Source of the DNA: Parerythrobacter sp.
GTDB lineage: Bacteria > Pseudomonadota > Alphaproteobacteria > Sphingomonadales > Sphingomonadaceae
Assembly (NCBI GenBank): GCA_028289565.1
Contig: JANQPE010000130.1
Coordinates: 1-38,289 of the forward strand
DNA: 38,289 bases
Reading direction: 5' to 3'
Shown here: in pieces, positions 5,266 to 36,438 of the stretch
How positions within the stretch are numbered: the stretch's first letter is position 1
Layout of the letters: each line of letters begins with the position of its first letter
The notes under the pieces: model-generated
Databases searched by the model: none
What the model was told of the DNA's origin: nothing
The model's input: the letters and a program-made list of their open reading frames with translations, nothing else
Translations under genes and position numbers: made by a program

Positions 5266-5340
5266 GGGCGTATAGCTCAGTGGTAGAGCACTGTATTGAC
5301 ATTGCAGGGGTCGGAAGTTCAACTCTTCCTACGCCCACCA
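5266..5340 (+). tRNA. tRNA-Val (GAC), CCA encoded
   Basis: Acceptor GGGCGTA...TACGCCC, D-loop GCTCAGTGGTAGAGC, anticodon stem-loop CTGTA-TTGACAT-TGCAG, T-arm GGAAG-TTCAACT-CTTCC, then ACCA. Confidence 0.95.
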
Positions 5341-33822: not shown

Positions 33823-35037
33823 ATGTCCGACGTAAGACGTGTCGTCCTCGCCTATTCGGGCGGCCTCGATACCAGCGTGATCGCCAAGTGGCTCGAAACC
33901 GAGCGCGGCTGCGAAGTGGTGACCTTCACCGCCGATCTCGGCCAGGGCGAGGAGATCGAACCTGCGCGCGACAAGGCGCGGGCGATGGGTATTCCCGACG
34001 AGCACATCTTCATCGAAGACCTGCGCGAGGAATTCGCGCGCGATTTCGTCTTCCCGATGATGCGCGCCAATGCCCGCTACGAAGGCGATTACCTCCTCGG
34101 CACCAGCATCGCCCGACCGCTGATTTCGAAGCGGCTGGTCGAGATCGCGCACGAGACCGGCGCCGACGCGATCGCGCACGGCGCGACCGGCAAGGGCAAC
34201 GACCAGGTACGGTTCGAACTCAGCGCCTACGCGCTCGACCCCGATATCAAGGTGATCGCTCCATGGCGCGAATGGGATCTGAACAGCCGAACGGCACTGA
34301 TCGCCTGGGCCGAAGCACACCAGATCCAGGTTCCGCGGGACAAGCGTGGCGAAAGCCCGTTCTCGACCGACGCCAACCTGCTCCACACCTCGTCCGAGGG
34401 CAAGGTGCTGGAAGATCCGTGGGAGGAAACGCCGGATTACGTCTATTCGCGCACCGATCATCCCGAAGACGCGCCCGACGAGCCGGAATACATCACCATC
34501 GACTTCGAGCAGGGTGACGGCGTTGCCCTGAACGGAGAGACGATGAGTCCGGCAACGCTGCTGACCGCTCTCAACGAACTTGGCCGCAGGCACGGGATCG
34601 GCCGGCTCGACCTGGTCGAGAACCGCTTCGTCGGGATGAAGAGCCGCGGCATGTACGAGACGCCCGGCGGCGAGATCTATGCCCGCGCCCATCGCGCGAT
34701 CGAGCAGATCACGCTCGATCGCGGCGCGGCGCATCTGAAGGACGAGCTGATGCCGCGCTATGCCGAGCTGGTCTATAACGGCCTTTGGTTCAGTCCCGAG
34801 CGAGAAATGCTGCAGGCGGCAGTGGATCTGAGTCAGGAGAAGGTGCGCGGCACGGTGCGGCTGAAACTCTATAAAGGGACTGCCGGCGTGGTCGGAAGGA
34901 AATCGCCGGACAGCCTGTATTCCGAAGCCCACGTCACTTTCGAGGACGATGCGGGCGCCTATGACCAGAAGGACGCGGAAGGTTTCATCAAGCTCAACGC
35001 TCTTCGTTTGCGGCTGTTGGCCAAGCGCGATCGCTAG
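33823..35037 (+). CDS. argG: Argininosuccinate synthase
   Basis: [55 protein letters not shown]. Confidence 0.98.
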
Positions 35038-35054
35038 GCTTGCGACGAGACGTT

Positions 35055-35103
35055 GACTTATCCACTCTTGTCCACCGCTGAATCGGAACAAAGTGGATAA
35101 GTC
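35055..35103. promoter_or_regulatory. 12-bp perfect inverted repeat with three DnaA-box-like 9-mers
   Basis: GACTTATCCACT (35055-35066) and AGTGGATAAGTC (35092-35103); TTATCCACT at 35058 and, reversed, 35100-35092; TTGTCCACC at 35068-35076. Each has one or two mismatches to TTATNCACA. Confidence 0.45.
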
Positions 35104-35239
35104 GGGCTTGCCAGCCTTGAACGACTCGCTTCTTCGGCGCAGTCTTTGTTCATCGAGACGGCGAGGAAGCCTTTCCGATTGAAGGTCCAACGACTTGAAA
35201 ACGGACAGATTTCAAACCTGATCGACGTGGCGGCAACTG

Positions 35240-35612
35240 TCCGCGCGGTCTTTGAGGAATGCAGGCGGAAGGGTCAAACCGGAAGCAAGCAAACTGTTTG
35301 AGAAGAACGCGAAAGCAAGCCGACACGGGCCGGACGATCCGGTCGAAAGTCGAGATATCGCGAGGCGCAAGCCTGGCGGAATCGCTTGAGGCTATCGACC
35401 AACAGGAACGAAAGGCTGCGGGACCGGAAGGTACCGGAAAGGTCTTCGGACCGGAACGGTAACGGAAGGAACCGGATGCCGGTGCGAGCGCCGGTGACAG
35501 AAGCGGAGAACCGGTTTGCCGGGGAAACGTGAAAACATCGGATGCCAAGTGCTTTCTTCGGAAAGCCCACGCATCGGTGAGAGTGGGGTCGGCAGCAATG
35601 CCGGCCCCATTT
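35240..35612 (+). ncRNA. Candidate structured non-coding RNA between argG and rlpA
   Basis: No credible ORF; hairpins CCGGA-CGA-TCCGG, AGGC-GCAA-GCCT, GGTC-UUCG-GACC, ACCGG-AUG-CCGGU, GCUUUC-UUCG-GAAAGC nested in GAUGC/GCAUC, and a 12-pair GUGGGGUCGGCA-GCAA-UGCCGGCCCCAU. Strand is inferred from tetraloop sequence. Confidence 0.45.
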
Positions 35613-35633
35613 GCCTTGGGCAGCTCGCAGCTC

Positions 35634-35669
35634 GCCCAAAGCATGGCCCAAAGCACAGCCCAAAGCACA
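35634..35669. repeat. 12-bp tandem repeat, 3 copies
   Basis: GCCCAAAGCATG / GCCCAAAGCACA / GCCCAAAGCACA. Confidence 0.85.
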
Positions 35670-35838
35670 GGTGGAGCCGGCGGTGGATTCCCTCGTGAAT
35701 TCAAACGGCAAGAGCGCCTGCTTAGGTGATTGTGGAGAAACGGTTTTTCTCGTCAGAAACCCCAAATCGCAATTTTCCGCAACGGTTGCGGCCAATCGGT
35801 CGGGACTCGCGGCAGGTTGTGCCCGGCCCCTTCCCGCC

Positions 35839-36438
35839 ATGGCCCGCAATGCTGTAATTGCGCGGACCATGGATAGGGCGAATCCCTTCACCCCGCGCCG
35901 CATCCGCGGTGCGGCGGCCCTGGCCGCTGCATTGGTCATGCCGGTCGGTACGGGCGGAGCGGCTCTTGCCGATACCAGCCCCGCCGCCAGTACAGCCGGG
36001 ACCAGCCGGTTCGACACCAGCTTCGCCCGGTTCGAGCAACTGCCCCCGCCGCCACGGCCGGTTGCCGGCGCCGTCGATATCACGACCATCGATCCGCCGA
36101 TCGAGACCGAGAGGCAGCCCGAACCAGGCGCAAGCCGCGCTTCGCGTTCGCTTGGTACCGGGGTGGCTTCCTATTACGGGCGGCGTTTCCACGGGCGGCG
36201 CACGGCCAATGGCGAACGGTTCGACATGTATGCCATGACGGCCGCGCATAAGACCCTGCCCTTCGGCAGCCGCGTGCGAGTGACCAATCCGCGCAACGGC
36301 AAGTCGGTCATCGTCAGGATCAACGACCGCGGCCCGTTCGTACGCGGGCGGACCATCGACCTGTCGCGTGCCGCCGCCGGCAAGATCGGGATCATCGGCA
36401 GCGGTCATGGCCGGGTCACGCTCGAACTGCTGCGCTGA
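35839..36438 (+). CDS. rlpA: Septal ring lytic transglycosylase RlpA family protein
   Basis: GTGVASYYGRRFHGRRTANGERFDMYAMTAAHKTLPFGSRVRVTNPRNGKSVIVRINDRGPFVRGRTIDLSRAAA. Start may be 35839 or 35869. Confidence 0.92.
   Translation: MARNAVIARTMDRANPFTPRRIRGAAALAAALVMPVGTGGAALADTSPAASTAGTSRFDTSFARFEQLPPPPRPVAGAVDITTIDPPIETERQPEPGASRASRSLGTGVASYYGRRFHGRRTANGERFDMYAMTAAHKTLPFGSRVRVTNPRNGKSVIVRINDRGPFVRGRTIDLSRAAAGKIGIIGSGHGRVTLELLR

Follow-up and report, generated by a model that had tools for sequence, protein, structure and literature searches.

The 38,289-nt stretch of Parerythrobacter sp. DNA analyzed here, referred to below as the window, contains argG at 33823-35037 on the + strand (Pfam Arginosuc_synth, PF00764/PF20979) and, on the other flank of an adjoining gap, rlpA (Pfam DPBB_1), with an in-frame ATG at 35839. 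The gap is not drifting spacer but holds the gene for a folded non-coding RNA of ~460 nt, and we consider it nearly certain that a structured RNA gene lies at this locus. Based on homology, covariation and the z-score of the minimum free energy (MFE), the proposed RNA runs from 35152 to 35613 on the + strand, with a predicted 5′ end; argG is its 5′ neighbor and lies outside the RNA unit. A preliminary description, made from the sequence of the window, had suggested an undescribed structured RNA at 35240-35612. Its location was correct, but its limits were not: the unit is wider, with a 5′ end at about 35151-35152. The RNA 5′ end, a global closing helix and an upstream promoter module, all described below, were absent from that account.

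Coding potential, known RNAs and conservation of the gap

The gap had been described as lacking a supportable protein, and this view holds. In a comparison with 20 close relatives, each overlapping ORF is put out of frame by frameshifts in 15-20 of them, and no Pfam family was found above the cut-off for any of these ORFs. Protein-coding candidates, including minus-strand frames of 184 and 271 aa, were rejected on both grounds. When the window was searched against Rfam 15 at the gathering threshold, the sole match was a tRNA at 5266. A permissive scan of 34800-36000 returned only sub-threshold chance matches, and 14 related loci from the wider family had no Rfam match, so the database search that had been proposed as a check found no family for the RNA. 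The RNA resembles RNase P RNA, tmRNA and 6S RNA in being a large structured RNA with a global fold, but it had not been recognized as any of these, and rightly so, since all three are encoded elsewhere in the genome. Separate copies of RNase P RNA, alpha tmRNA and 6S RNA are present in G000 (C64, C34, and C33, respectively) and in eight other genomes, and these candidates were discarded. The papers searched contain no description of the RNA or of similar sphingomonad non-coding RNAs, and the parts of two genome-wide surveys of non-coding RNAs reached by our search terms do not mention it.

Comparison of the spacer with the DNA of relatives, also proposed earlier, yielded full-length homologs with 67-74% identity over ~580 bp, straight after argG in other genera. 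With the copy from the relative G016 as the query, matches were obtained in 135 of 401 family genomes and in 40 of 96 genera. A covariance model built on the 3′ domain of the RNA (R1) scored at least 77 bits in 116 of 401 Sphingomonadales genomes, the next best score falling to 45 bits. The element shares the strand of argG in ~90 fetched loci, where its terminator ends 520-810 nt past the argG stop. Contigs named in GTDB as Erythrobacteraceae (Erythrobacter, Qipengyuania, Altererythrobacter, Croceibacterium, Aurantiacibacter, Porphyrobacter, Pelagerythrobacter, and others) had argG just upstream in 73 of 80 cases, and the remaining seven elements lay near the edge of the fetched stretch. Wherever argG was in view, the Erythrobacteraceae element was directly 3′ of it on the same strand. 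The RNA is therefore conserved across the Erythrobacter group. In G010, G006, G014, G033, and G019, family members with a close argG, the element was not detected downstream of that gene and may have been lost, diverged or relocated. In a further genome (G008:C1:1402817-1404013), argG is in several pieces and has two in-frame TGA codons, which may reflect a pseudogene, an assembly error or recoding.

Predicted fold of the RNA

The + strand of 35240-35616 folds far more stably than shuffled sequence, with an MFE of -159.1 kcal/mol vs. -136.8 ± 5.6 in shuffles (z = -3.95; 0 of 100 shuffles as good); this was the outcome of another check proposed in the preliminary description. For the - strand of the same interval, z was -0.69. 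An alignment of the 3′ domain from 68 sequences had 199 cells in which both bases had changed and the pair was kept; shuffles gave 56 such cells and slid partners no more than 46. Covariation over the whole element was assessed on a sequence-based alignment of 92 sequences using our own implementation of the test, not R-scape, with a G-test statistic and a null in which substitutions are reassigned over the tree. The two-set test was limited to the 135 pairs of a structure predicted with no covariation term; of these, 37 covary at E < 0.05 against this tree-based null, compared to 0 and 3 with slid partners. Covarying base pairs, which had been named beforehand as support for an RNA, are thus present. 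A test of all column pairs gave only one pair at E about 0.05, and the significance stems from the two-set test. Supported helices cover the RNA from 35156 to 35612, and the predicted fold is strongly supported by these comparisons.

All helices described here are on the + strand. The RNA is probably enclosed by a global closing helix, in which CAUC at 35151-35154 pairs with GAUG at 35475-35478 and, in the inner part, CGG at 35419-35421 pairs with CCG at 35472-35474. Both parts are paired in 43 of 43 sequences; the pairs are nearly invariant and so gain no support from covariation, and the helix is proposed from complementarity alone. It starts where the promoter predicts the RNA start, and it would explain the conservation of the CCGGAUG motif. 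Within it, the first part of the 5′ domain (35156-35222) consists of the helix 35156-35161/35217-35222 and the hairpin 35184-35187/35192-35195, and the pairs 35156:35222, 35159:35219, 35160:35218, 35177:35202, 35185:35194, and 35186:35193 covary. The second part (35226-35327) is built from the helix 35226-35234/35319-35327, the inner helix 35244-35253/35302-35311 and the hairpin 35271-35273/35278-35280, with covariation at 35228:35325, 35229:35324, 35250:35305, 35251:35304, and 35272:35279. The middle domain (35328-35417) contains the helices 35328-35333/35412-35417 and 35339-35351/35390-35406 together with a GCAA-capped hairpin at 35359-35378; here 35330:35415, 35349:35392, 35350:35391, and 35359:35378 covary. 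A UUCG hairpin, GGUC-UUCG-GACC, follows at 35441-35452 and has the covarying pair 35443:35450 (two-set E = 3e-5).

The 3′ domain is predicted to form a three-way junction (35479-35577) of P1 (35479-35486/35570-35577), P2 (35488-35496/35536-35545), and P3 (35551-35556/35561-35566). In addition to the pair counts given above for this domain, 35495:35537 (E = 2e-4) and 35553:35564 (E = 3e-5) covary, and double changes within the domain are most numerous in the P3 hairpin (35551-35566). The last element is a terminator-like stem with a GCAA loop at 35581-35612, paired in 100% of cells among 68 sequences and with four double-changed pairs. Its loop alternates between GNRA and UUCG types, with the closing pairs changing along with the loop, and its U tract is short (AUUUGCCU). 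The 3′ domain has an alternative fold, Alt B, that combines the hairpin CCGGYG-CGAG-CGCCGG with the pairing CACCGGGCG/CGCGCCGGUG. Alt B is compatible with 91% of cells vs. 89% for the three-way junction, which we nevertheless prefer because 35495:35537 covaries. In 35479-35577 and its homologs, two mutually exclusive folds are therefore both largely conserved (CCGGYGCGAGCGCCGG), and a conformational switch between them is possible.

Every stem quoted in the preliminary description exists where it was placed, and the comparison with relatives separates those that belong to the conserved fold from those that do not. Three hairpins, GGUC-UUCG-GACC (35441-35452), GCUUUC-UUCG-GAAAGC (35551-35566) and the GCAA-capped stem at 35583-35610, are conserved and covary in relatives. 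The hairpin AGGC-GCAA-GCCU (35363-35374) was retained in part, its position being conserved and extended by the covarying pair 35359:35378, but its apex being weaker. The remaining four differ from the conserved fold: UUGAAA/UUUCAA (35195-35215) is not part of it; the bases of CCGGA-CGA-UCCGG (35330-35342) pair with 35395-35417 in the consensus; the CCGGAUG of ACCGG-AUG-CCGGU (35471-35483) has as its partners 35419-35421 and the 5′ end of the RNA (35151-35154); and GAUGC/GCAUC (35541-35575) competes with the three-way junction, whose pair 35495:35537 covaries. Nevertheless, the central suggestion of an undescribed structured RNA has been borne out by conservation over 40 of 96 genera, covariation, lack of an Rfam family and lack of a conserved reading frame. 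The outcomes that had been named as adverse to it, namely an absence of conservation or covariation and a match to Rfam, were looked for and did not occur.

Promoter-like module and similar units elsewhere

Upstream of the RNA, three DnaA-box-like sites are clustered at a fixed spacing. Site 1 (TTATCCACT; 35058-35066, + strand) is TTATCCAC in 72 of 92 homologs; as a background, 400 kb sampled from G016 contain TTATCCAC on either strand at 0.0125 per kb. Site 2 (TTGTCCACC; 35068-35076, + strand) lies 10 bp past site 1 and is of the TGTCCAC type at that spacing in 80 of 92 homologs. Site 3 (AGTGGATAA, the reverse of TTATCCACT; 35092-35100, - strand) is 34 bp from site 1 and occurs as GTGGA(T/A/C)AA in 88 of 92. 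Many of the sites are imperfect (TTTTCCAC, CCCTCCAC). The three sites are among the most conserved bases of the locus and can be regarded as putative DnaA boxes. Further downstream on the + strand is a -35-like hexamer, TTGAAC, at 35117-35122 (TTG in 90 of 92 homologs), separated by 17 bp from a -10-like hexamer, CAGTCT, at 35140-35145; CA(G/T/C)NNT and the 17-bp spacer are both conserved. The spacer starts with GACTC (35123-35127, + strand), an instance of GANTC and a predicted site for CcrM methylation and GcrA. GANTC is found at the aligned place in 71 of 92 homologs, about a quarter being without it, and 70 of 92 have the extended GcrA-type motif [AC]GA[AC]TC[AG]. Simple consensus scanners called neither a promoter nor a + strand terminator at the locus.

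GcrA-activated promoters carry GANTC near their -35 and -10 elements. All 12 genomes tested encode GcrA (PF07750) and a CcrM-like RAMA protein (PF18755); in the present genome, the RAMA protein is an ORF of 374 aa and contains a DPPY motif. With a conserved GANTC of GcrA-type extension between -35 and -10, and with both proteins encoded, the module is a good candidate for a GcrA/CcrM promoter. The extended GANTC motif tied to GcrA activation is YGAKTCK (PMC7987155). As in GcrA/CcrM-dependent sigma70 promoters (PMC3667746, PMC7987155), the promoter GANTC at our locus matches YGAKTCK, here on the bottom strand, in a genome that encodes GcrA and CcrM; unlike them, it is joined with upstream DnaA-type boxes and is predicted to drive a large structured RNA. 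Judging from the sequence, the promoter as drawn, with its DnaA sites, -35, GANTC and -10, is very probably real, and control of RNA synthesis by DnaA and GcrA, suggested by conserved motifs and the presence of the regulator genes, is reasonably likely.

Weak matches to R1 in other Sphingomonadaceae genera consist of a TTATCCAC box, a GCGACTC motif and a like terminator. This wider-family terminator is of the type TGGGGGCTGGCAGC(A/G)ATGCCGGCCCCCATTT and lies about 350-800 bp past the module. Of 22 wider-family modules, 21 have a GANTC no more than 100 bp away from the box. Neighboring genes, named here from a reading of their translations, place the unit after argG in g30, next to a divergent gene for a UvrD-like helicase in g100 and beside nadA in g65. 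A strict pattern of the module was found in 56 of 401 genomes vs. 3 for the reversed control. Three pattern matches in other families of the order (G429, G443, and G462) were dismissed; they look like chance, with no matching RNA unit, and a coding sequence immediately follows in two of them and a small gene is nearby in the third. Tandem units were seen in G240 and G193, each copy with its own box, and L343 (G240:C57:22211-23022), L344 (G193:C2:1374616-1375417), and L345 (G278:C19) each hold two tandem promoter-terminator units of ~350-440 nt, implying duplication of what would be RNA genes. At L343-L362, the upstream array is TTATCCCCG-ATATCCCCG-TTATCCACA, i.e., three head-to-tail 9-mers comprising one strong and two weak DnaA-like boxes. 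The g100 loci beside the helicase gene (L305, L306, L312, L314, and L320) have the motifs GCGACGCCTGAGC and AAGAAGGGCCGC in common, and the RNA versions of g100 may form a subfamily of their own. The RNA body can be aligned only within Erythrobacteraceae and the genus g30; beyond these, only the module and the terminator are in common. When 7- and 8-mers shared between the RNA bodies of Erythrobacteraceae and distant genera were compared, only the terminator and common words were found. Common descent of the distant units' RNA bodies with the Erythrobacteraceae RNA is likely.

Interpretation and relation to known systems

Considered as a whole, the locus is best explained, with better than even confidence, as an independent, cell-cycle-controlled gene for a trans-acting structured RNA. 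RNA polymerase would start near 35152 (the A of AUCG) at the sigma70-like promoter TTGAAC-17 bp-CAGTCT and would stop past the GC-rich stem at 35581-35612, leaving a 3′ end just after CCCCAUUU. The 5′ end of the RNA would then pair with the CCGGAUG motif at 35472-35478, enclosing the 5′ domain, the middle domain and the UUCG hairpin, and the three-way junction and the terminator stem would follow past the enclosed domains. Binding of DnaA to the three upstream boxes would tie synthesis of the RNA to chromosome replication, and GcrA on the CcrM-methylated GANTC between -35 and -10 would provide a second tie. We can only guess that the RNA, once folded, regulates the cell cycle or growth in trans, via mRNA or protein partners; such a regulatory role is proposed by analogy with CcnA and EcpR1 and is put forward tentatively, at somewhat less than an even chance.

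Several other explanations were considered. GC-rich words pair easily, and some of the stems first quoted are not conserved, as would be the case if the locus were a short chance cluster of CCGG hairpins in a GC-rich spacer; given the z-score of -3.95, conservation across genera and covariation, this is scarcely credible. Equally little can be said for an RNA that sequesters CsrA/RsmA. The + strand is purine-rich, with an AT skew of up to 0.5 and repeated GGA/GGAA words, but CsrA (PF02599) was found in 0 of 12 genomes with positive controls, and a sponge of the CsrB/RsmZ type was ruled out for lack of CsrA/RsmA in these 12 genomes. The position of the element within Erythrobacteraceae, always 3′ of argG and on the same strand, would suit a structured 3′ UTR or a processed piece of the argG mRNA. 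This is improbable considering that a -35/-10 module is situated 80 bp past the argG stop, that the predicted start site is where the fold closes, and that like module-terminator units adjoin other genes elsewhere in the family.

The DnaA-type sites raise the question of whether the DNA is the key element and the transcript incidental, the locus being a DnaA-binding cluster that serves as a titration or reactivation site like datA or DARS. The most conserved bases include three such sites at fixed spacing, and the boxes persist where the RNA body diverges. However, DNA binding leaves compensatory pair changes over the next 460 nt unexplained, the boxes move with the RNA terminator to new loci and into tandem copies, and -35, GANTC and -10 stand at a fixed distance past the boxes; we judge this explanation unlikely. 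A DnaA-box cluster in a large intergenic region could also mark oriC, overlapped by the transcript in the manner of CcnA, which sits in the Caulobacter origin (PMC8959179). This is very improbable, because the origin of G016, located by GC skew (sampled in 20-kb pieces) and KOPS-like polarity, is near 0.5-0.6 Mb and the terminus near 1.9 Mb, with the locus at 2.22 Mb, and the origin of G226 is near 1.35 Mb, with the locus at 2.99 Mb. An oriC identity was rejected since skew places the origin elsewhere in both genomes. Measured from the origin, the RNA locus of G016 and G226 is at about three quarters of the distance to the terminus.

The gene for a cell-cycle-controlled structured RNA, which is the explanation we favor, can be compared with a few known systems. 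CcnA is a 182-nt cell-cycle non-coding RNA of Caulobacter crescentus that lies in oriC and has been attributed to CtrA (PMC8959179). Like CcnA, the RNA is an alphaproteobacterial non-coding RNA whose promoter has sites, here predicted, for master cell-cycle regulators; unlike CcnA, it is ~460 nt long, beside argG and away from the origin, the sequences having been compared only via the Rfam scans. By inspection, no CtrA site of the form TTAA-N7-TTAA, and no TTAA half-site, is present in 35038-35152, so that the RNA locus has neither the oriC position nor the CtrA promoter site of CcnA. EcpR1 is a stress-induced, trans-acting sRNA of Sinorhizobium meliloti tied to replication and the cell cycle (PMC4414408). 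EcpR1 shares with the present RNA an alphaproteobacterial host and a link, proposed here, to replication and cell-cycle control, but it belongs to another order, and the two are set side by side by description only. In its size of several hundred nt, its many covarying helices and its unclear function, the RNA resembles OLE, GOLLD and ROOL (PMC12286853); it differs from them in having no Rfam match to them, and in its taxa and context.

A broader possibility, which we advance as speculative, is that large structured RNAs timed to the cell cycle by DnaA and GcrA/CcrM are family-wide in Sphingomonadaceae and act as a core regulator of replication or division, the module having been kept through moves, tandem duplication and divergence. 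An RNA with many covarying helices that occurs in well over 100 species and is absent from Rfam constitutes a new RNA family, and its hosts are a large and ecologically important group of bacteria. A promoter that combines DnaA boxes with GANTC offers a testable link among chromosome replication, DNA methylation and a structured RNA. Since very few cell-cycle non-coding RNAs are known from alphaproteobacteria, this RNA would add a conserved and genetically tractable case beyond Caulobacter and the rhizobia.
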